This document shows, piece after piece, positions 43,932 through 56,625 of a stretch of 64,000 bases of DNA. The first letter of the stretch is position 1, and the number at the start of each line of letters is the position of its first letter. The DNA is from Paracoccus sp. SMMA_5_TC. GTDB lineage: Bacteria > Pseudomonadota > Alphaproteobacteria > Rhodobacterales > Rhodobacteraceae. The DNA is taken from positions 434,001 through 498,000 of the forward strand of contig NZ_CP102355.1 in the NCBI RefSeq assembly GCF_009696685.2, in the 5' to 3' direction. The position numbers were made by a program, and so were the translations under genes. The notes below the pieces were generated by a model. The model worked only from the letters and a program-made list of their open reading frames with translations. It was not told the origin of the DNA and searched no databases.

Positions 43932-44702
<771 letters not shown>

Positions 44703-44705
44703 CGC

Positions 44706-45368
44706 TCAGGTCCTTTCGATCAGATGTTTGGTGATACGGGTTTCCAGCCGGCGTCCCACCCGGCTGATGGTTTCGACCAGCAGCCAGAAGAACAGCGCCA
44801 GCACCACATTGGCCTCCAGATAGCGGAAGGTCTCGGTGGACATGCGGCTGACCTGATACATCAGCTCGGGCACGGTGATGATCGACAGGATCACCGTTTC
44901 CTTGGTCAGGATGATCGAGAAATTGACCAGCGCCGGCAGCGCCGACACCAGACCCAGCGGCAGCAGGATGCGCCGCACGATGGTCGGTTCGGTCATGCCG
45001 ATGCTGCGCGCGGCCTCGATCTGGCCATGCGGCACCGCCCGAAAGCCCGAGCGGAAGATTTCCGCGAAATAGGGGCTGCCATAGATGGTCAGGCCCAGCA
45101 GGCCCGCCGGCAGCGCGTCCAGCCGCAGCCCGATCAGCGGCCCGCCGTAATACAGCACGAACAGCTGCACCAGGAACGGGGTGCCGCGGATGATCTCGAT
45201 ATAGGCCTGGATCAGCCAGCGCAGCCAGCGCGGGCCATAGCGCTGCATCAGCGCGATGATCAGACCCAGCGCCATGGAAAAGATCGTGCCCAGGATCCAG
45301 CACAGGATGGTGACGCCAAAGCCGCGCAGCAATGCGGGGCCGTATTGCTGAAAGATGCCCAGTTCCAT
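44706..45368 (-). CDS. Polar amino acid-type ABC transporter, permease 2
   Basis: 220-residue inner-membrane permease with about five helices and the coupling EAA-like loop (GQIEAARSIGMTEPTIVRRILLPLGL). Belongs to the HisMQ type (LIQAYIEIIRGTPFLVQLFVLYYG). The ATG at 45368 overlaps the last base of the preceding permease stop, and the ATPase start lies three bases downstream. Confidence 0.92.
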   Translation of the reverse strand: MELGIFQQYGPALLRGFGVTILCWILGTIFSMALGLIIALMQRYGPRWLRWLIQAYIEIIRGTPFLVQLFVLYYGGPLIGLRLDALPAGLLGLTIYGSPYFAEIFRSGFRAVPHGQIEAARSIGMTEPTIVRRILLPLGLVSALPALVNFSIILTKETVILSIITVPELMYQVSRMSTETFRYLEANVVLALFFWLLVETISRVGRRLETRITKHLIERT

Positions 45369-46015
45369 CACACCGCCGTCCTGTGTTCCAGATAACGTCC
45401 CAGCGCCGCCAGGCACAGGTTGATCGCCAGATAGATGCAGGCGGCGGCGATATAGACCTCGAGCGGGCGGAAGGTGGTCGCGGCCTGCGCCTGGCTGGCG
45501 CGGGTGATTTCCAGGATGCCGACCACCGACACCAGCGAACTGGCCTTGACCAGCAGGATCAGTTCGTTGACCAGCGCAGGCAGCGACATGCCGAAGGCCT
45601 GCGGCAGGATGATGCGGGTCCAGACGTCGCGCGGACCCATGCCGATGGCCACCGCCGCCTCGGTCTGGCCGCGCGGCAGGGCGGCGATGGCGCCGCGCCA
45701 GATTTCGGAAATATAGGCGCTGGCGCAGATACCCACCGAAATCACCGCCGCGGCGATGGGCGGGATGTCGATGCCGATCACCGGCAGCGAATAATAGAAC
45801 ACCAGCAGTTGCACCAAGAGCGGCACCCCGCGCAGGAAACTGACCCAGACCCCGGCAAAGCGGCGCAAGAGCGCATAGGGCGACAGCCGCGCCGCGCAGA
45901 TCAGCGTGCCGATCACCAGCCCCAGCGCGATTCCCAGCACCGAAATCAGCAGCGTGTAGCGGGCCGCCATCAGCAGGGGCCAGAAACTTTCCAGAAAGAC
46001 GGGGACAGAGAACAT
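45368..46015 (-). CDS. Polar amino acid-type ABC transporter, permease 1
   Basis: 215-residue permease of the same HisMQ type (FAGVWVSFLRGVPLLVQLLVFYYS, and the loop GQTEAAVAIGMGPRDVWTRIILPQAFGMS). Presumably forms a heterodimer with permease 2. ATG 46015 matches the usual N-terminus; the frame upstream is not supported. It begins about 60 bases after the binding-protein gene. Confidence 0.92.
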   Translation of the reverse strand: MFSVPVFLESFWPLLMAARYTLLISVLGIALGLVIGTLICAARLSPYALLRRFAGVWVSFLRGVPLLVQLLVFYYSLPVIGIDIPPIAAAVISVGICASAYISEIWRGAIAALPRGQTEAAVAIGMGPRDVWTRIILPQAFGMSLPALVNELILLVKASSLVSVVGILEITRASQAQAATTFRPLEVYIAAACIYLAINLCLAALGRYLEHRTAV

Positions 46016-46076: not shown

Positions 46077-46895
46077 TCATTCGGTCGGAACTTCGCGCGG
46101 CAGTTCGGTATAGGTGCCCAGCCACTTTTCCTGGATGGCCTTGACGCGGCCGTCATCGGTCATCTTCAGCAGGGCATCGTTGATTGCCTTGGCCAGGGTT
46201 TCGCTGTCGGCTTCCTTGCGCAGCACCCAGGCGAAGTATTTCGGCTCGCCGAACTGGGCGGGCTCGAACAGGGCAAAGGTCTCGGGCCGGTTCTTGACCA
46301 GATAGGTCAGGTTCGGCAGCGATCCGGCCACCGCGTCCAGCCGGCCGGCGGCCAGGTCGGCATAGGCTTCATCGGTGGTGCCGTATTCCTTGATGGTGAT
46401 GCCGCCCAGCTTTTCGCCATAGGCCTGCAACTGCTTGAACTGCGCGGTGCCCTGCTGCACGCCGACGGTCTTGCCCTTGATGTCCTCGGGCTTGGTCAGA
46501 TCGGCATTGGCCGCGGCCTTGACCAGCGACACGGTGGCATCGGCGATCGGCAGGGTGAAGGTATAGCGCTCGAGCCGCTCGGGGGTGATGGTCACCGGCG
46601 CGATCACGATGTCGAACTTCTTCACCTCAAGGCCGGGCAGTTCGGCCGGCCAGGGAATGTCCTGATAGACCGGGGTGACGCCCAGTTCCTTGGTCACCTC
46701 GTCGAACAGGTCCTTGGTCATGCCTTCGTAGGTGCCGTTGTTCAGCATGTCGAAGGGCGCGTAATGCATGTCGGTGGCGGTGACGATCTTGCCCGCCGCC
46801 TTGATGTCGGCCAGCTGATCGGCCTGGGCGGCGCTGCCCAGCGCCAGGGCGGTCAGGCCGAACAGCGCGGCCTTGAGGCTGTGGGAAAACTTCAT
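46077..46895 (-). CDS. ABC transporter solute-binding protein, unusual ligand pocket
   Basis: 272-residue periplasmic family 3 binding protein with signal peptide 1-25 (LFGLTALALGSAAQA). Compared by eye with HisJ, the carboxylate-binding Arg is kept (Arg107, TITPERLERYTF) and the hinge GVQQGTAQ is present, but the Asp that binds the alpha-amino group (IDAAFQD in HisJ) aligns without gaps to Ser192 in LDAVAGSLPN. This suggests a ligand with a carboxylate but without an alpha-amino group, for instance urocanate or imidazole propionate. Located 76 bases downstream of hutU. Ligand is inferred; histidine is not excluded. Confidence 0.9.
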   Translation of the reverse strand: MKFSHSLKAALFGLTALALGSAAQADQLADIKAAGKIVTATDMHYAPFDMLNNGTYEGMTKDLFDEVTKELGVTPVYQDIPWPAELPGLEVKKFDIVIAPVTITPERLERYTFTLPIADATVSLVKAAANADLTKPEDIKGKTVGVQQGTAQFKQLQAYGEKLGGITIKEYGTTDEAYADLAAGRLDAVAGSLPNLTYLVKNRPETFALFEPAQFGEPKYFAWVLRKEADSETLAKAINDALLKMTDDGRVKAIQEKWLGTYTELPREVPTE

Positions 46896-46971
46896 CTTCG
46901 GTTGCTCCTTGTTGGACGGAGGGGTTTGTCTGGGCGCGGCGCCGGTGCGTTGCGACCCCGCGCCCCTTTGA

Positions 46972-48636
46972 TCAAAGGATCGCGGGCAGATTCAAGCCAT
47001 GCTCGCGCGCGCAGTCCAGCGCGATCGCATAGCCCGCATCGGCGTGCCGCATGACGCCGGTGGCAGGATCGTTCCACAGCACCCGGGCAATGCGACGGTC
47101 GGCATCTTCGCTGCCGTCGCAGCAAATGACCATCCCCGAATGCTGCGAAAAGCCCATGCCGACGCCGCCGCCATGGTGCAGCGACACCCAGGTCGCCCCC
47201 GAGGCGGTGTTCAGCAGCGCGTTCAGCAGCGGCCAGTCGCTGACCGCGTCAGAGCCGTCCTGCATCGCCTCGGTCTCGCGGTTGGGCGAGGCGACGCTGC
47301 CGCTGTCGAGATGGTCGCGGCCGATGACGATGGGCGCCTTCAGCTCGCCCGTGCGCACCATTTCGTTGAAGGCCAGCCCCAGCTTGTGCCGCAGCCCCAG
47401 CCCCACCCAGCAGATGCGCGCCGGCAGGCCCTGGAAGCTGATGCGCTCGCGTGCCATGTCCAGCCAGTTGTGCAGATGCGGGTCATTGACCAGTTCCTTG
47501 ACCTTCTGGTCGGTCTTGTAGATGTCCTCGGGGTCGCCCGACAGCGCCGCCCAGCGGAACGGCCCGATGCCGCGGCAGAACAGCGGCCGGATATAGGCGG
47601 GCACGAAGCCCGGAAAGGCAAAGGCGCGGGTAAAGCCTTCCTCCAGCGCCATCTGGCGGATGTTGTTGCCGTAATCGACGGTGGGGATGCCGGCATCGGC
47701 AAAGGCCACCATCGCCTCGACCTGCAGCCGCATCGAGGCGCGGGCCGCCTTTTCCACCGCCTTGGGGTCGCTTTCCTGTTTCGCGCGCCATTCGGCCACG
47801 GTCCAGCCGACCGGCAGATAGCCATGCACCGGGTCATGGGCGCTGGTCTGGTCGGTGACGATGTCGGGGCGCACGCCTCGGCGCACAAGTTCGGGAAACA
47901 CCTCGGCCGCATTGCCGATCAGCGCCACCGATTTCGCCTCGCCCGCCTTGGTCCAGCGGTCGATCATCGCCAGCGCCTCGTCAAGGTCGTGGGTCTTTTC
48001 GTCGACATAGCGGGTGCGCAGGCGGAAATCGGCGCTGGCCTCGTTGCATTCGACCGCCAGGCAGCAGGCGCCGGCCATCACCGCGGCCAGCGGCTGGGCG
48101 CCGCCCATGCCGCCCAGACCGCCGGTCAGGATCCACTTGCCCTTCAGGTTGCCGCCGTAATGCTGGCGCCCGGCCTCGACAAAGGTTTCGTAGGTGCCCT
48201 GCACGATCCCCTGCGAGCCGATATAGATCCAGGATCCGGCGGTCATCTGACCATACATGGCCAGGCCCTTGCGATCCAGCTCGTTGAAATGATCCCAGGT
48301 TGCCCAATGCGGCACCAGGTTGGAATTGGCGATCAGCACCCGCGGCGCGTCCTTGTGGGTCTTGAACACGCCGACGGGCTTGCCGGATTGCACCAGCAGG
48401 GTTTCGTCGTCCTCGAGCCGCTTCAGGCTGTCCACGATCAGGTCGAAATCCTTCCAGGTGCGGGCGGCCCGGCCGATGCCGCCATAGACCACCAGCTCAT
48501 GCGGGTTTTCGGCGACGTCGGGATGCAGGTTGTTCATCAGCATCCGCATCGGCGCCTCGGTCAGCCAGCTCTTGGCGGTGATCTCGGGGCCGGTGGGGGG
48601 ATAGATGTCGCGGATATTGTGACGGGGATTTTCCAT
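46972..48636 (-). CDS. hutU: Urocanate hydratase
   Basis: 554-residue NAD-dependent lyase converting urocanate to imidazolonepropionate. Recognisable regions include [39 protein letters not shown] and [21 protein letters not shown] (NAD site), [20 protein letters not shown], and [22 protein letters not shown]. Full length. It follows the acyl-CoA dehydrogenase gene by 12 bases and is last of the enzyme genes before the ABC transporter. Confidence 0.97.
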
Positions 48637-48648
48637 GTCTGTCTCCGT

Positions 48649-49806
48649 TCAGGCCAGCATGTTGCCGGAAATGATGGTGCGTTGGATTTCCGATGAACCT
48701 TCGTAGATGCGCATGATCCGCAGGTCGCGGCAGATGCGCTCGACGGGAAAGTCGCGGGTATAGCCATAGCCGCCGTGCAGTTGCAGCGCGGTGTCGGCGA
48801 TGCGTCCGGCGGCCTCGGATGCGGCCAGCTTGGCCATGCTGGCGGCCAGCGAAAAGCGCCCGCCGCCGCCGTCGTGGGCCGCCTGGCGCTGGCGCGCCGC
48901 GTCCTGTGCCAGCAGCAGGGCCGCGCGATAGGCCACGCCCATGTCGGCGATCATCCAGCGGATGCCCTGGCGGTCGGTCAGCGGCATGCCGCCGATCACG
49001 CGCTGGCGGGCATAGTCGATGGCCGCGGTCATTGCCGCCTGCGCCATGCCCAGGCATTGCGCCGCGACCTCGATGCGGCCGTTGTCCAGCACCTGCATGG
49101 CGGTGCGAAAGCCGCGGCCTTCCTCGCCCAGCAGCGCCTCGGGTGGCAGGTGGCAGTCGATGTTGAGCGTGAACACATGCCCGCCGCGCAGCCCCATGGT
49201 GCGTTCGGCCGATCCCGCCTGCAGCCCCGGCGTGCCCCTAGGCAGGATGAAGGCGGAAATGCCGCGATGGCCCAGCGCCGGGTCGGTCACCGCATAAACC
49301 ACGATGAAATCCGCCACCCCGCCGTTCGAGATGAAGCATTTCGTGCCCTTGAGGTGCCAGCCCTCGGCGGTGCGGCGGGCGCGGGTCTGCATGTCGGCGG
49401 GATCAGAGCCGGCGGTGGGCTCGGTCAGGGCAAAGGCGCCCAGCGCCGCGCCCTCGGCCGCGGGCGGCAGCCAATGCTGCCGTTGCGCCTCGGTCCCGCC
49501 GATCAGGATGGAATCGGTGGCCAGGTAATGCGCCGTCAGCGCCGATGCGGTCGAGCCGCAGGCCCCCGCCACGATCGCCACCGCAGACAGCAGCGCCGGT
49601 GCCGAGATGCCCGAACCGCCATAGGCTTCGGGCAGGTTCGCGCCCATCATCCCGGCCTGGCCCAGGATCGCCAGCTGATCGTGGACGAAACGCCCGCTTT
49701 CGTCGGTTTCGGCGGCGCGCGGCGCGATCTGTTCGGCGCAGATGCGGCCCAGCACGTCGCAAAACAGCCGCTCTTCCTCGGCCAGCATGTGCCAATCGTC
49801 ATTCAT
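48649..49806 (-). CDS. Acyl-CoA dehydrogenase embedded in the hut operon
   Basis: 385-residue FAD enzyme of the short/medium-chain acyl-CoA dehydrogenase family. The FAD signature FALTEPTAGSDPADMQTRA is near residue 125, HLKGTKCFISNGGVADF follows, and the catalytic base is Glu369 in RIYEGSSEIQR. It would introduce a 2,3-double bond into an acyl-CoA. It overlaps the CoA-transferase gene by eight bases and sits between hutG and hutU. Imidazolepropionyl-CoA to urocanoyl-CoA is an attractive reaction, since urocanate is the substrate of the next enzyme, HutU; this is inferred from context. Confidence 0.92.
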   Translation of the reverse strand: MNDDWHMLAEEERLFCDVLGRICAEQIAPRAAETDESGRFVHDQLAILGQAGMMGANLPEAYGGSGISAPALLSAVAIVAGACGSTASALTAHYLATDSILIGGTEAQRQHWLPPAAEGAALGAFALTEPTAGSDPADMQTRARRTAEGWHLKGTKCFISNGGVADFIVVYAVTDPALGHRGISAFILPRGTPGLQAGSAERTMGLRGGHVFTLNIDCHLPPEALLGEEGRGFRTAMQVLDNGRIEVAAQCLGMAQAAMTAAIDYARQRVIGGMPLTDRQGIRWMIADMGVAYRAALLLAQDAARQRQAAHDGGGGRFSLAASMAKLAASEAAGRIADTALQLHGGYGYTRDFPVERICRDLRIMRIYEGSSEIQRTIISGNMLA

Positions 49807-50953
49807 GGGTCGCCTCCTTCAGTCCGAACATGCGCAGGATCGCCGCGCGGTCTGCCCCGAGCTGCGGCGCCGATGTCGCCGCCAGCGGCTTGTCGCCATC
49901 AAAGCGCACCGGCTGGCCGACGACGGGCGCCCGACCCAGCACCGGATGCGGCAGGTCCTGCACCAGACGCCGTGCGCGGGCGTGCTCGCTGCCTGCCGCC
50001 TGGGCGATGTCCCAGATCGGCGCCGCCGGCAGGCCCGCGCCGGCAAGCGCGGCCACCGCCTGTTCGGTCTCGAGCCCCCGCGACCAGGTCTCGATCAGCG
50101 CCTTCAGCGCCGGTTCATGGGTGGTGCGGCTTTCGTCGCTGGCAAAGCGCGGGTCGTCGGCCGCCTCGGGGGCGCCGATCAGCGTGGCCAGCGCCGCGAA
50201 CTGCCGCCCCGACAGCACCGCGATCACCACCTGGCCGTCGCGGGTGGCAAAGCAGCCGAAGGGCGTGGACAGCGGATGGCGGTTGCCCACCCGCTGCGGC
50301 AGCAGCCCTGCATACAGGTGCAACGCATGGCTGGTGGTCAGCATGGAAAACAGCGCGTCATACATGGCCACATCCAGCACCGCCCCCTGCCCCGAGCGGT
50401 CGCGCCCCACCAGGGCCGCCAGGATCGACCAGCTTGCAAACAGCCCCGCGATCAGGTCGGCGATGCTTTCGCCGGTTTTCAGCGGCGCGCCGCCTTCCTC
50501 GCCGGTGCCGGCCATCAGCCCCGACATCGCCTGCACGACCAGGTCATAGGCCGGCAGGTCGCGAAACGGCCCCTGCTGCCCAAAGCCCGAGATCGAGCAA
50601 TAGATCAGCCGCGGATTGGCCGCGCGCAGCTGATCGGCGCCCAGCCCCAGCCTGGCGGCAACACCGGGGCGAAAGTTTTCGACCACCACATCGACGCGCG
50701 CGGCCAGATCGCGGGCCAGCGCCAGATCCTTGGGCTGCTTCAGATCCAGGACCAGGCTGTGCTTGCCGCGGTTGTTCAGGGTGAACAGCGCGCTTTCGCC
50801 GTCGCGGAACGGGCCGATATGGCGGTAGTCATCGCCCGCAGGCGGCTCGATCTTGATGATGCGCGCGCCCAGATCGGCCAGCAGAGCCGTGCAATAGGGA
50901 CCGGCCAGCACCCGCGACAGGTCCAGAACGGTGATGCCCTCGAGCGGCTTCAT
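49799..50953 (-). CDS. CaiB/BaiF class III CoA-transferase embedded in the hut operon
   Basis: 384 residues of the formyl-CoA/carnitine CoA-transferase family. PLEGITVLDLSRVLAGPYCTALLADLGA opens the protein; NNRGKHSLVLDLKQ and VVVENFRPGVAARLGLG are family-typical, and Asp166 in GESIADLIAGLFA is in the position of the catalytic Asp. It transfers CoA between carboxylic acids. Four-base overlap with hutG and eight-base overlap with the acyl-CoA dehydrogenase place it firmly in the operon. Likely acceptor here: an imidazole acid such as imidazole propionate, with urocanoyl-CoA as possible donor (inferred). Confidence 0.92.
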   Translation of the reverse strand: MKPLEGITVLDLSRVLAGPYCTALLADLGARIIKIEPPAGDDYRHIGPFRDGESALFTLNNRGKHSLVLDLKQPKDLALARDLAARVDVVVENFRPGVAARLGLGADQLRAANPRLIYCSISGFGQQGPFRDLPAYDLVVQAMSGLMAGTGEEGGAPLKTGESIADLIAGLFASWSILAALVGRDRSGQGAVLDVAMYDALFSMLTTSHALHLYAGLLPQRVGNRHPLSTPFGCFATRDGQVVIAVLSGRQFAALATLIGAPEAADDPRFASDESRTTHEPALKALIETWSRGLETEQAVAALAGAGLPAAPIWDIAQAAGSEHARARRLVQDLPHPVLGRAPVVGQPVRFDGDKPLAATSAPQLGADRAAILRMFGLKEATHE

Positions 50954-51741
50954 GGCCGAACCTCGGGCGCCAGTGCGGCCAGGCGTTCCAGGATCGCGCG
51001 CAGCGCGTCGCGCAGCGGCTCGGCCCGGGCGGGGTCATAGGCAAAGGGCGGGGCCTCGCTGGCCAGATGCGTGGATTGCGCCAGCTCCATCTGGATCGCA
51101 TGCACGCCCTGGGCCGGCTGACCGTAATGGCGCGTGGTCCAGCCGCCCTTGAAGCGCCCATTCAGCACATGGCTGCGGCCGGTGGCGGCGCAGAGTTGCA
51201 GCGCCGCCGCCTCGATGCGCGGGTCGCAGGACTGGCCGCTGTTGGTGCCGATGTTGAAATCGGGCAGCGTGCCCTCGAACAGGAACGGGATGTGGCTGCG
51301 GATCGAATGGCAATCATACAGGATCGCCACCCCGTGCCGGGCCTTGACGCGCGCGATCTCGGCCGCCAGCGCGGCGTGATAGGGGGCGTGGAACCGGGCC
51401 TTGCGGGCCGCGATATCGTCGGCGGTCGGCGGCTGGGTCCAGATCGGCTGGCCGTCGAAATCGGTCAGCGGCACCAGCCCGGTGGTGTTCTGCCCCGGAT
51501 ACAGGCTGGCATCGTCGGGCCCGCGGTTGGCATCGATGACATAGCGGTGGAAGGTGGCGCGCACCGTGGTCGCGCCGGGCAGCAGGCCGTCATAAAGCCG
51601 CTCGATATGCCAGTCGGTGTCGGCCAGGATCTGGCCGCGATCATTCAGCCGGGCGCGGATGTCGTCGGGCAGCCAGGTGCCGGTATGGGGCAGGCCCAGG
51701 ATGACCGGGCCATCGCCGCGGCTGACCTCAACCGGGGTCAC
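50950..51741 (-). CDS. hutG: N-formylglutamate deformylase
   Basis: Last step of the five-step route: N-formylglutamate to glutamate and formate; 263 residues. Metal-site regions include [42 protein letters not shown] and [16 protein letters not shown] [13 protein letters not shown] chose the GTG at 51741 overlapping the hutH stop (GTGA); it gives a family-typical N-terminus and the longer open frame is an overlap with hutH. Goes with HutF, which makes the formylglutamate. Confidence 0.93.
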
Positions 51742-53279
51742 GGCCGCACCTCGGCCAGCAGATCGGCCGGAACCGCGGCCACCAGTTCGCCCTCGCGGAT
51801 CAGCCGCGCGGCCTCGACCAGGTCGGGGGCCATGTAGCGGTCCTGGTCCAGCGCCGGAATCGTCCGGCGCAGCGTGGCGATCACCGCCTGCAGCGGCGCC
51901 GAGGTTTTCAGCGGCGCGCGAAACTCGACCCCGGCGGCGGCGCACAGCGCCTCGATGCCCAGGATATTCGCCAGGTTGGCATTCATCCGCTTCAGCCGCC
52001 GCGCGCCATGGGCGGCCATGCTGACGTGGTCTTCCTGATTGGCGCTGGTCGGGGTGGAATCGGTCGAACAGGGCGTCGCCAGATGCTTGTTTTCGCTCAT
52101 CAGCGCGGCCGAGGTCACCTCGGCGATCATCATGCCGCTGTTCAGTCCCGGATCGGGGGTCAGGAACGGCGGCAGATCATGGCTGAGCGCGGGGTCCACC
52201 ATCAGCGCAATGCGGCGCTGGGAAATGGCGCCGATTTCGGCGATGGCCAGCGCGATCTGGTCGGCGGCAAAGGCCACCGGCTCGGCATGGAAGTTCCCGC
52301 CCGAGACGATCGCCCCCGCCTCGGTCAAGACCAGCGGGTTGTCGGTGGCGGCATTGGCCTCGATTTCCAGGGTGCGGGCGGCCTGGGACAGCAGGTCGAT
52401 GCAGGCGCCCGTCACCTGCGGCTGGCAGCGGATGCAATAGGGATCCTGCACCCGGCTGTCGTCGGTGCGATGGCTTTCGCGGATCTCGGACCCCTGCATC
52501 AGCCCGCGAATGGCGGCGGCGGCGACGATCTGCCCGCGATGCCCGCGCAGGCTGTGGATTTCCGCAAGAAACGGCGCGGTCGAGCCCATGATCGCATCGG
52601 TCGACAGCGACGAGGTGACCAGCGCCGCCCGCGCGGCGGCAAACGCATCGAACAGCCCCGCCAGCGCGAATGCGGTCGAAGCCTGGGTGCCGTTGATCAG
52701 CGCCAGCCCCTCTTTGGCGGCCAGCACCACCGGGCGCAGGCCGGCGGCGGCCAAGGCCTCGGCCCCCGACATCTCGCGGCCCTGCCATGTGGCGCGGCCC
52801 TCGCCCAGCATGGCGGCGGCCATATGCGCCAGCGGCGCCAGATCGCCCGAGGCGCCGACCGAGCCCTGCGCCGGGATGACCGGCAGCACGCCCTGCGCCA
52901 GCATGCCCTCGATCAGGGCGATGACCTCGGGGCGGATGCCCGAGGCGCCGCGCCCCAGCGACAAAAGCTTCAGAACCATCATCAGCCGCACGGTCTGCGG
53001 CTCGACCGCCTCGCCCACGCCGCAGCAATGCGACAGGATCAGGTTGCGTTGCAGCGTCGCGGTGTCCTCGGCCCGGATCTTGATCGAGGCCAGCTTGCCG
53101 AAGCCGGTATTGACGCCATAGACCGGAACCTCGCCATTGGCGGCGGCGCTGACGCGCGCGGCCGAGGCGGCAATGGCCGGCCGGGCGCTGTCGGCCAGAC
53201 GCACGGCCAGGCCTTCGCGCCAGACGCGCTGCAACTGTTCAAGCGTGGTTTCGCCGGGGGTCAGGATCAGTTCAGACAA
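51738..53279 (-). CDS. hutH: Histidine ammonia-lyase
   Basis: Converts histidine to urocanate, 513 residues. The MIO-forming Ala-Ser-Gly is at residues 143-145 ([12 protein letters not shown]), with [12 protein letters not shown] upstream and [13 protein letters not shown] downstream. I prefer the TTG at 53279 as start: GGAGG lies five bases before it and the resulting [13 protein letters not shown]-terminus is the usual one. The in-frame ATG at 53303 has no ribosome site and lies inside hutI. Start overlaps the hutI end by 8 bases. Confidence 0.95.
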
Positions 53280-54474
53280 GGGCGCCTCCGAAGATGCGGG
53301 CATGAAGGGGGTTGAAGCCGATGCGATAGCTCAGCTCGGCCGGGTGCTGGACGTTCCAGACCGCAAGGTCGGCGCGCATGCCCGCGGCGATGCGGCCGCG
53401 ATCGGCCAGGCCCAGGGCGCGGGCGGCGTGCCAGGTCACGCCCGCCAGACATTCGGCGGGCGTCAGCCGGAACAGGGTGGCGCCCATGTTCATCGTCAGC
53501 AGCAGCGATGTCAGCGGCGAGGTGCCAGGGTTGCAATCGGTGGCCAGAGCCATCGGCACGCCCGCATCGCGCAGCGCCTGCACCGGCGGCAGCCGGGTTT
53601 CGCGCAGCGCATAGAAGGCGCCGGGCAGCAGCACCGCGATGGTGCCGGCGGCGGCCATCGCGTCGATACCGTCCTGACCCAGATATTCCAGATGGTCGGC
53701 CGACAGCGCCCCGCGCCCCGCCGCCATCGCCGCCCCGCCCAGGTCCGACAGCTGTTCGGCATGCAGCTTGATCGGCAGGCCAAGCTGGCGGGCATGGTCG
53801 AAGATCGCGGCCATTTCCGCGCGCGAAAAGGCGATGCCTTCGCAAAAGCCGTCCACGGCGTCGATCAGATCCTCGGCATGGGCGGCATCCATGCCGGCGA
53901 TGACCACGTCGCGGATATAGGCCTGGCGGTCGCTGGCGTATTCGGGCGGCAGCGCATGGGCCGCAAGCCAGGTGGTTTCGACGTGAATGTCGCGCCGTTC
54001 CGCGATCAGTCGGGCGACGCGCAGCATCTTCAACTCGCTGGCCAGATCCAGGCCATAGCCCGACTTGACCTCGATCGTGGTCGCGCCTTCGGCGATCAGA
54101 TGATCGACCCGCGCCAGCGCCATGCGCAGCAGCTGCGCCTCGTCGGCGGCGCGGGTAGCGCGCACGGTGGACAGGATGCCGCCGCCGGCGCGGGCGATAT
54201 CCTCATAGCTGGCGCCCTCCAGCCGCATCTCGAATTCGCGGGCGCGGTCGCCGCCAAAGACGACATGGGTGTGGCAATCGATCAGCCCCGGCGTCACCAA
54301 CCGCCCGCCCATGTCCCGGCGCGGGCCCGCGGCATGACGTTCGGGCAGTTCTGCAACCGGACCGACCCAGCTGATTCGGTCATCCTCGATCACCAGGGCA
54401 CCCTGGTCGATCAGGCCATAACCGGCTGTGTTTTCGTCGATCGTGGCGATCTGGGCATTGGTCAGAATCTGCAT
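53272..54474 (-). CDS. hutI: Imidazolonepropionase
   Basis: Opens the imidazolone ring to formiminoglutamate; 400 residues, full length. The metal motif is [19 protein letters not shown], with [30 protein letters not shown] and [12 protein letters not shown] further on. ATG 54474 is preferred, with GGGGA upstream; ATG 54501 lacks a ribosome site. First gene of the long hutIHG-CoA-transferase-dehydrogenase-hutU run, divergent from hutF. Confidence 0.95.
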
Positions 54475-54507
54475 CCCCGCCGGTCCCCGATTGATTTTCA
54501 TTGCGTC

Positions 54508-54524
54508 TATGTCTAAACTTATTT
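54508..54524. promoter_or_regulatory. Probable HutC operator, copy 1
   Basis: TATGTCTAAACTTATTT, an imperfect palindrome (TAnGTnTAnACnTA core), in the divergent hutI-hutF gap. HutC-type GntR repressors bind short AT-rich palindromes of this kind. Identical to copy 2. Confidence 0.65.
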
Positions 54525-54530
54525 CAACGC

Positions 54531-54547
54531 TATGTCTAAACTTATTT
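54531..54547. promoter_or_regulatory. Probable HutC operator, copy 2
   Basis: Exact second copy of the 17-base site, 23 bases downstream of the first (about two helical turns), ending 18 bases before the hutF start. Placement on one face of the helix suits cooperative binding and control of both divergent promoters. Confidence 0.65.
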
Positions 54548-54565: not shown

Positions 54566-55927
54566 ATGGAAACGATCTGGGCACAGTGGGCCTTGCTGCC
54601 GCAGGGCTGGGCGCGGAATGTTCGGGTAACGCTGGACCAGGGTCGCATCACCGGCGTGGACAGCGACCAGCCCGAACAGGGGCACCGGGTGCCGCTGCTG
54701 CTGCCGGCACTGGTCAATCTGCACAGCCATGCCTTTCAGCGCGCCATGGCCGGCCTGTCCGAGGCGCGCGGGCCGCATCCGCGCGACACCTTCTGGACCT
54801 GGCGCCAGATCATGTATCGCTTCCTGGACCACCTCGAGCCCGATGACATCGAAACCATCGCCGCGCTGGTGCAGATGGAGATGCTCGAAGCGGGCTATGC
54901 CACCAATGTCGAGTTTCACTATCTGCACCATGCCCCCGGCGGCCGGCCCTACGCCGATATCGCGGAAATGGCCTGCCGCATCGCCGCCGCGGCCGCCCGC
55001 AGCGGCATCGGCCTGACCCTGCTGCCGGTGCATTACCAGTTCGGCGGCACCGACCGGCGGGCGCTGGTGTCGGGCCAGGATCGGTTCGGCACCACGCCCG
55101 AGCAGTTCCAGCACCTGCTCGAGGCATCCGAGGCCGCCTTGGCCGCCCTGCCCGCCGATACCGGCATCGGTGTCGCGCCCCATTCGCTGCGCGCCGTTTC
55201 GCCCGAGGGGCTGGCGCTGTGCGCGGCGCTGCGCCCCGACCGGCCGCTGCATATGCATCTGGCCGAGCAGATCCCCGAGATCGAGGAGATCAGCGCCGCC
55301 TATGGCCGCCGGCCGGTCGAATGGCTGCTGGATCATCACCAGCCCGACAGGCGCTGGACGCTGATCCACCTGACCCACATGACCGAGGACGAAAACCGCC
55401 GCCTTGCCGCCACCGGCGCCACCGCGGGCCTGTGCCCGATCACCGAGGCCAGCCTGGGCGACGGCATCTTCGACGCCACCACCTGGCGCGAGGCCGGCGG
55501 GCGGCTGGGCTTTGGTTCGGACAGCAATATCCGGATCACCCTGACCGAGGAACTGCGCGCCCTGGAATACAGCCAGCGCCTGCGCGACCGTGGCCGCGCC
55601 ATACTGGCCAGCCGCGAACATTCGACCGGCAGGGTGCTGTATCAGGCAGGGCTGGACGGCGGCGCCACCGCGGCCGGCCGCGACACCGGCGCCATCCGCG
55701 CCGGGCTGTGGGCCGACCTGGTCGCCATCGATCTGGACAATACCGTCATGGCCGGGCGCGAGGGCGATCAATTGCTGGACAGTCTGATCTTTGCCGGCCA
55801 TGACCGGCTGATCCGCGATGTCTGGGCAGCCGGCCGCCATGTGGTCCGCGACGGCCGCCATATGGACCGCGACCGCATCATCGCCGATTATCTGCGCACC
55901 ATTGCCCGGCTACAGGACCGCATGTGA
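54566..55927 (+). CDS. hutF: Formimidoylglutamate deiminase
   Basis: Hydrolyses N-formiminoglutamate to N-formylglutamate and ammonia, defining the five-step hut pathway with HutG. 453-residue amidohydrolase: [17 protein letters not shown] carries the HxH, followed by [41 protein letters not shown] and [23 protein letters not shown] 54566 follows GGAAAGGG. Divergent from hutI and overlapping hutC by four bases. Confidence 0.95.
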
Positions 55928-56625
55928 CCGAAAGATCCGCCAGCAAGGCCCAGGCCATCATCGCCGAGGTGCGCCGCCGCATCGTCGACCGCGAATGGCG
56001 TCAGGGCGATCGCATCCCCGACGAGGCCGAGCTGGCGGTCGAGTTCGGCGTCGCCCGCGCCACGGTGAACAAGGCCCTGCAGACCCTGGCCGAGGAAGGC
56101 CTGCTGGACCGCAAGCGGCGCGCGGGCACCCATGTGACCGTCAACCCCGCGCGCAAGGCCACGCTGACCATTCCCATCGTGCGCGAACAGATCGAACAGG
56201 CGGGGATGGTCTACAGCCACCGGCTGGTGGCGCAGCGGCGCAGCCCGCTGCCCGCCGATGTCGCCCGGCGCATGGCCCTGCCGCAGGGCCAGCCGCTGAT
56301 CCATCTGCGCACCGTTCATTTCGGCGATGACCGCCCGTTCCAGATCGAGGACCGCTGGCTGAACCCCGAGGCTGCGCCGGGCAGCGACGCGGTCGATTTC
56401 CAGCGCATAAATGCCAACGAATGGCTGGTGCGCAACTTTCCATGGTCGCGCGCCGACATGGCGTTTTCGGCCGAAAACGCCAATGCCCGCGATGCGCGGT
56501 TGCTGGATACCCGTCCGGGCACCGCGCTGCTGATCCTGGAACGCACGACCTGGAACGACCTGGGGGCGATCACCTCGGTCAGGCTGGCCTTTCACCCCGG
56601 ATATCGGCTGATCGCCACGCCCTGA
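55924..56625 (+). CDS. hutC: Histidine utilisation repressor (GntR family)
   Basis: 233 residues. N-terminal winged helix (QGDRIPDEAELAVEFGVARATVNKALQTLAEEGLL) and a C-terminal UTRA ligand-binding domain (YSHRLVAQRRSPLP; HLRTVHFGDDRPFQIEDRW; LLILERTTWNDLGAITSVRLAFHPG). HutC binds urocanate as inducer in other bacteria. GTG start at 55924 overlaps the hutF stop. The paired 17-base sites upstream of hutF are its likely operators. Confidence 0.95.
   Translation: MTERSASKAQAIIAEVRRRIVDREWRQGDRIPDEAELAVEFGVARATVNKALQTLAEEGLLDRKRRAGTHVTVNPARKATLTIPIVREQIEQAGMVYSHRLVAQRRSPLPADVARRMALPQGQPLIHLRTVHFGDDRPFQIEDRWLNPEAAPGSDAVDFQRINANEWLVRNFPWSRADMAFSAENANARDARLLDTRPGTALLILERTTWNDLGAITSVRLAFHPGYRLIATP

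Follow-up and report, generated by a model that had tools for sequence, protein, structure and literature searches.

A class III coenzyme A (CoA)-transferase (CoAT) and an acyl-CoA dehydrogenase (ACAD) encoded within the histidine-utilization (hut) cluster of Paracoccus sp. SMMA_5_TC probably convert imidazole propionate into urocanate by way of CoA esters, with an importer of their own and under hut control. The genes lie in a 64,000-nucleotide stretch of contig NZ_CP102355.1 (positions 434,001 to 498,000; hereafter the window) of a 3.12 Mb genome in three contigs. The assignment builds on the families and catalytic residues of the two enzymes, on their gene run, on linkage to hut genes and to an operator, on genes for electron-transfer flavoprotein (ETF) and ETF:quinone oxidoreductase in one lineage, and on one genome without a detectable histidase. 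We infer the identity of the exact substrate, of the CoA donor and of the imported molecule, as well as the regulation itself; the substrate may instead be a very close imidazolyl-propionate.

In the proposed cycle, the transporter would import imidazole propionate (dihydrourocanate). CoAT would transfer CoA from urocanoyl-CoA to imidazole propionate, forming imidazolepropionyl-CoA and releasing urocanate, with the CoA of the first round coming from another acyl-CoA. ACAD, using Glu369 as base and flavin adenine dinucleotide as acceptor, would then remove two hydrogens from imidazolepropionyl-CoA and supply urocanoyl-CoA for the next round, and the electrons would pass from ETF through ETF:quinone oxidoreductase to the respiratory chain. 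The net reaction would convert imidazole propionate and oxidized ETF into urocanate and reduced ETF, CoA being catalytic. HutU, HutI, HutF and HutG, under HutC, would complete the route to glutamate.

Gene run and the two enzymes

The minus-strand run comprises hutI, hutH, hutG, CoAT, ACAD and hutU, and continues past hutU with an ATP-binding cassette (ABC) transporter (46895-43932) consisting of a binding protein, two permeases and an ATPase. The hutF and hutC genes occupy the plus strand, across a short divergent promoter from hutI. The CoAT gene overlaps hutG by 4 bases and the ACAD gene by 8 bases, and hutU starts 12 bases past ACAD. In the window, hutI, hutH, hutG, hutU, hutF and hutC each score above the respective NCBIfam cut-off (Table 1). 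The initial annotation had described this placement of CoAT and ACAD between hutG and hutU, including the overlaps, the 12-base gap, Asp166 and Glu369, and each of these details is confirmed. The two genes that it singled out stand; it had overlooked the ABC transporter that travels with them, as well as the operator and the existence of stand-alone modules. The route that it put forward, from imidazole propionate through CoA esters to urocanate for HutU, gains support from the hut and operator linkage, the Marinobacter lipolyticus SM19 cluster and the Zobellella ETF genes described below.

CoAT belongs to the CoA_transf_3 family (PF02515; 422.6 bits, Pfam cut-off 23.3). Asp166, located in the segment GESIADLIAG, aligns with the Asp of YfdE (4hl6); the catalytic Asp of class III CoA-transferases is known from formyl-CoA transferase. 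ACAD contains the Acyl-CoA_dh_N, _M and _1 domains above the Pfam cut-offs (N-terminal 83.7, middle 81.4 and C-terminal 149.5 bits), and Glu369, in the C-terminal domain segment RIYEGSSE, is kept in 100 of 100 aligned rows. Both enzymes miss every NCBIfam equivalog cut-off, the top models being CoA:oxalate CoA-transferase for CoAT (303.5 bits versus 522) and acryloyl-CoA reductase AcrC for ACAD (354 bits versus 640); membership of either in a named equivalog was therefore rejected. ACAD Asp98 is present in 96/100 rows, or 82/85 when only distinct rows are counted, and the equivalent positions in the five best PDB relatives are W, M, N, G and G (0/5 Asp). Asp98 may be considered a candidate imidazole contact.

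Linkage to hut genes, transporter and operator

A pattern scan of genome contigs with CoAT yielded 522 relatives, of which the best 80 loci were kept and their neighbors assigned by tblastn with the window proteins. The nearest named relatives of the window CoAT are from Paracoccus. The loci were divided into close ones, with CoAT at least 60.5% identical (n = 50), and those below 60.5% (n = 30). ACAD accompanies CoAT in 50/50 close loci, and hut structural genes are present in 41, mostly in the window order. The remaining nine are unlinked modules of CoAT, ACAD, binding protein, permeases and ATPase. A HutC paralogue adjoins eight of them (L006 Shinella, L016, L019 Sinorhizobium, L021, L025, L027, L029, L030 Phyllobacterium). 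HutC is missing from the ninth, that of Paracoccus alkanivorans (L028), where two operators and, after them, a 140-amino-acid amino-terminal HutI fragment (L028:7449-7933) come directly before CoAT; because this truncated HutI precedes CoAT, the module looks derived from a hut operon. The linkage recurs in Rhodobacterales, Hyphomicrobiales, Comamonadaceae and Marinobacter. As the pair recurs across many genera, whether within hut clusters or within modules sharing the operator, the pairing is not attributable to chance.

The binding protein is encoded in 35/50 close loci versus 0/40 hut loci without close CoAT (Fisher p 3e-13, a value that ignores relatedness). In these 40 loci, taken from genomes of the family, neither the binding protein nor the first permease was found. 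The hut clusters of eight genomes that carry the module elsewhere (L172-L179) are likewise without the binding protein, save one 31% match in L172. This distribution indicates that the importer travels with CoAT-ACAD and not with hut. A general role of the ABC transporter as hut histidine importer was rejected on the 0/40 result. The transporter most likely belongs to the CoAT-ACAD branch, and the imported molecule may be imidazole propionate. Binding protein residues Arg107 and Ser192 are each kept throughout the alignment (42/42 rows, with the window sequence entered twice); an acidic residue occupies the Ser192 position in six domains of five aligned solved amino-acid-binder chains. In amino-acid binders, the Arg serves the carboxylate and the acidic residue the alpha-amino group.

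An operator consensus, TATGTNTANACATA, was derived in this analysis from divergent promoters, and matches were accepted with at most one mismatch. The window contains two copies within the hutF/hutI promoter. Matches occur upstream of hutI in 32/40 hut loci without close CoAT, in 40/50 close loci, and upstream of CoAT in 9/9 stand-alone close modules, those of L028 lying 529-552 bases upstream, before the HutI fragment. The operator is also found in L053-L055, with their divergently oriented binding protein gene, and in a plasmid-borne module of Mesorhizobium. A few matches lie elsewhere (e.g. L056, L098/L125, L137), and there are none in mononucleotide-shuffled copies of 60 loci. The HutC paralogues of the stand-alone modules are 63-69% identical to the window HutC, and the hut-cluster HutC in six of those eight genomes (L172, L173, L175, L176, L178, L179) is 35-43% identical. 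No HutC was found at hut cluster L174, and G301, the hut cluster of the ninth stand-alone genome, was left out of this comparison. HutC may regulate the pair through the predicted operator.

CoAT also co-occurs with hutU. In a class draw of 387 genomes, 6/6 CoAT carriers have hutU versus 110/387 overall (p 4.8e-4; 1.7e-3 after removing the window's own genome). Within the family, CoAT of about 50% identity or more was present in 17/295 genomes, 16 of these 17 with hutU versus 147/290 genomes (p 1.2e-4, not corrected for kinship); the carrier not listed with hutU is a 73%-complete metagenome-assembled genome (MAG; G273). Among 45 hand-picked carriers at E <= 1e-100, hutU was detected in 44 (43 over cut-off) and hutH in 43 (41 over cut-off). 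The carrier in which hutU was not found is a Pseudophaeobacter MAG (L080). The two in which hutH was not found are M. lipolyticus SM19 and a Modestobacter MAG, and PF00221 at E <= 1e-10 also gave no match in either. SM19 has a run of CoAT, ACAD, transporter, hutI, arginase-type hutG and hutU, with hutC convergent, and no histidase was detected in this assembly, whose completeness is not reported. Across 100 Marinobacter genomes, hutU occurs in two, PF00221 in ten (SM19 not among them) and a window-type CoAT in one. The absence of hutH from a cluster was rejected as sufficient proof by itself: five of the 40 hut loci without close CoAT (L145, L149, L156, L157, L170) are without hutH, and each of these genomes contains, elsewhere, a PF00221 match of at least 589 bits.

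Two expectations of the initial annotation bear on these results. That homologues should lie near hut genes holds for the close loci, whose nine exceptions carry the hut-promoter operator, and less often for the distant ones. That the pair should go with hutU rather than hutH agrees with SM19, which pairs it with hutU.

Clade variants and plasmids

A quick CoAT tree of 107 rows, to which long-branch warnings apply, contains one group of 94 rows (SH-aLRT 94) that holds all rows with hut, HutC or ACAD neighbors and two others. Within this clade, one locus (L127, G114:C145:5000-23000) has CoAT beside thiourocanate hydratase, ErtD and ErtE, all over cut-off, together with two distant acyl-CoA dehydrogenases and a tripartite ATP-independent periplasmic (TRAP) transporter; this is perhaps a thio-imidazolepropionate entry in an ergothioneine-utilization locus. 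L119, L120 and L121 combine CoAT with a second HutU, a PIG3-like quinone oxidoreductase, an IclR-type regulator and a TRAP transporter, a possible variant arrangement. The contexts of L127 and L119-L121 tie the clade to urocanase-type enzymes. In L122 and L123, a clade CoAT is accompanied by two distant acyl-CoA dehydrogenases as well as a TRAP transporter and a regulator resembling HutC.

CoAT is encoded on 13 plasmid records, 11 predicted to be non-mobilizable and two mobilizable. Plasmid pAMI6 of P. aminophilus carries the whole operon, Mesorhizobium pMspAR02a a stand-alone module, and P. yeei pTT13-5 a LysR-CoAT-ACAD arrangement, which also occurs on a mobilizable Leisingera plasmid (L211), adjacent to type IV secretion genes. 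The sole labels given to the pair on these four plasmids are 'CoA transferase' and 'acyl-CoA dehydrogenase family protein'.

A broader reading, toward which we lean with less assurance, is that the dedicated importer, CoAT and ACAD constitute a portable module, sometimes plasmid-borne, that HutC would control via a common operator near or far from hut genes and that would in some bacteria take the place of histidase in feeding the urocanate pathway. The module would then be the gene set behind bacterial use of imidazolylpropionate, which Coote and Hassall reportedly described in 1973 in Biochem J for Pseudomonas (now Comamonas) testosteroni. The pair lies near hutH and hutC in C. testosteroni genomes L057 and L061 and in Comamonas loci L060, L062 and L066. 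The module would also be a candidate sink for a gut metabolite with a link to disease: gut bacteria make imidazole propionate from urocanate, and the compound is linked to type 2 diabetes. If this is true, the consumer genes would reveal which organisms can remove imidazole propionate, and a sensor or degrading enzymes could be tested. Functions would be assigned to the two genes and to the transporter, which plasmid records call 'amino acid ABC transporter', and clusters labeled 'histidine utilization' could serve a different substrate.

Reaction direction and alternative readings

In Zobellella (L067:6969-15229) and in a gammaproteobacterial MAG (L052:206-8669), genes for LysR, CoAT, ACAD, EtfB, EtfA, a Gate-domain transporter and ETF:ubiquinone oxidoreductase form one run; the Pfam families were confirmed in Zobellella. 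That genes for ETF and ETF:ubiquinone oxidoreductase follow the pair points to an oxidation with electrons passing to ubiquinone. This argues against the reverse direction, in which reduction of urocanate would yield imidazole propionate and serve as an electron sink, in the way that Clostridium FldA/AcdA act on aryl acrylates. The chemistry is reversible, and the top NCBIfam model for ACAD is a reductase, though below cut-off. With a solute-binding-protein importer accompanying the pair, a complete catabolic hut set at the same location and one cluster in a genome without detectable histidase, the reverse direction has very little probability.

A modified imidazolyl-propionate (2-thio- or N-methyl-, from ergothioneine or methylhistidine) is unlikely to be the main substrate of this chemistry, with imidazole propionate merely a side substrate. 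The same-clade CoAT of L127, whose locus in one genome also encodes thiourocanate hydratase, ErtD and ErtE, suggests such a role, but it is on a long separate branch and its acyl-CoA dehydrogenases differ (the aligned one is 26% identical). The window clade accompanies ordinary hutU, hutI and hutG, and the window HutU scores below the thiourocanate hydratase cut-off (NF058530; 663 versus 930 bits). Action on another saturated acid that is merely co-regulated with hut, for example a glutarate-like acid or imidazolone propionate, appears quite improbable: CoAT does score 295 bits against the succinate-glutarate CoA-transferase model (below its cut-off of 750), and many of the less similar loci are without hut structural genes, but ACAD reaches just 205 bits against glutaryl-CoA dehydrogenase (cut-off 470), the pair is linked to urocanate by its position ahead of hutU as well as by the HutC paralogue and the operator, and the histidase-less cluster needs another urocanate source. 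It is barely credible that the genes are mere passengers, metabolically unrelated to histidine. Such a reading is compatible with the 131 of 147 hutU-containing family genomes in which CoAT at about 50% identity or above is absent, and it is opposed by the recurrence of the linkage in four taxonomic groups and by the shared operator when the genes are unlinked.

Several observations weigh against urocanate formation from imidazole propionate by the pair. Below 60.5% CoAT identity, hut structural genes are present in 11/30 loci and absent from 19/30; three of these 19 have the transporter, HutC and the operator, and 16 are without transporter and operator (14 of the 16 with ACAD), although some of these contigs are short. 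Three of the five non-self class-draw loci show ACAD as the sole marker neighbor, and one further locus, on a 3-kb contig, has neither ACAD nor another marker neighbor. Many of the 50 close loci are close kin (Paracoccus). Among them, 15 lack the transporter and 10 the operator, three of these 10 being short contigs. Loci L119-L121 have no ACAD. The 13 tree rows outside the clade are 42-47% identical and without hut, HutC or ACAD neighbors in loci that span ~1.5 kb each side, so that farther hut genes would be missed. The four ACAD rows without Asp98 are all actinobacterial. Only one of the four other aligned family-3 binding proteins in the window's genome has Asp at the Ser192 position, and by this own-genome control Ser192 was downgraded to weak as proof of a non-amino-acid ligand.

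Conversion of imidazole propionate to urocanate by the pair would resemble several known systems. The CaiB/CaiA carnitine system also places a class III CoA-transferase with a catalytic Asp beside an acyl-CoA dehydrogenase and recycles CoA between product and substrate; CoAT is only weakly similar to CaiB (1xk6, 84 bits), and CaiA works as a reductase, whereas oxidation of an imidazolyl acid is proposed here. Clostridium FldA and AcdA (aryl-acryloyl-CoA reductase) similarly combine a CoA-transferase with an acyl-CoA dehydrogenase between the aryl-acrylate and aryl-propionate derived from an aromatic amino acid, but the system is reductive and anaerobic, acts on phenyl or indolyl acids and has no hut cluster. 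Caffeyl-CoA reductase-Etf (CarC, 6fah; 229.8 bits to ACAD) shares the acyl-CoA dehydrogenase family and an aryl-acryloyl/propionyl-CoA pair, and differs as the electron-bifurcating reductase of an anaerobe. Ergothioneine utilization (Ert, in NCBIfam names) has a urocanase-type step and, in one locus, a same-clade CoAT, but involves thio-substrates, while NCBIfam places the window HutU among ordinary urocanases. With the hut pathway itself (hutHUIFG, hutC) the pair shares cluster, regulator type and downstream steps; it would add a second entry to urocanate that bypasses histidase.

The coordinates of the window features are collected in Table 1. The gap between hutU and the binding protein gene (46890-46975, minus strand) contains a GC-rich stem-loop (-31.4 kcal/mol, z -1.97) without a T-run.

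Table 1 Features of the hut region in the window (aa, amino acids; ORF, open reading frame).
Feature	Position	Strand	Basis or proposed role
CoAT, class III (CaiB/BaiF, PF02515), 384 aa, catalytic Asp166	49799..50953	-	proposed urocanoyl-CoA:imidazole propionate CoA-transferase
ACAD, 385 aa, catalytic Glu369, signature H93-x-L-x-T-D98	48649..49806	-	proposed imidazolepropionyl-CoA dehydrogenase
hutU, urocanate hydratase, consumer of the proposed product	46972..48636	-	TIGR01228 944.6 bits, cut-off 375
Family-3 solute-binding protein of ABC importer	46077..46895	-	PF00497; linkage to CoAT-ACAD
ABC permease 1, likely start 46015	45368..46015	-	ORF; homologue beside CoAT-ACAD in other loci
ABC permease 2, likely start 45368	44706..45368	-	ORF; same place in other loci; so annotated in pAMI6
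ABC transporter ATPase	43932..44702	-	PF00005 135.7 bits; same place in other loci
hutG, N-formylglutamate deformylase, probable GTG start 51741	50950..about 51741	-	TIGR02017 382.7 bits, cut-off 278.75
hutH, histidine ammonia-lyase	51738..53303	-	TIGR01225 697.1 bits, cut-off 539.15
hutI, imidazolonepropionase, start 54501 or 54474	53272..54501	-	TIGR01224 462.6 bits, cut-off 298.15
Operator-like palindrome TATGTCTAAACTTA, two copies	54508-54521 and 54531-54544	strandless	one mismatch each to TATGTNTANACATA
hutF, formimidoylglutamate deiminase, start 54566 or 54509	54566..55927	+	TIGR02022 539 bits, cut-off 413.05
hutC, GntR/UTRA histidine-utilization repressor	55924..56625	+	TIGR02018 260 bits, cut-off 220

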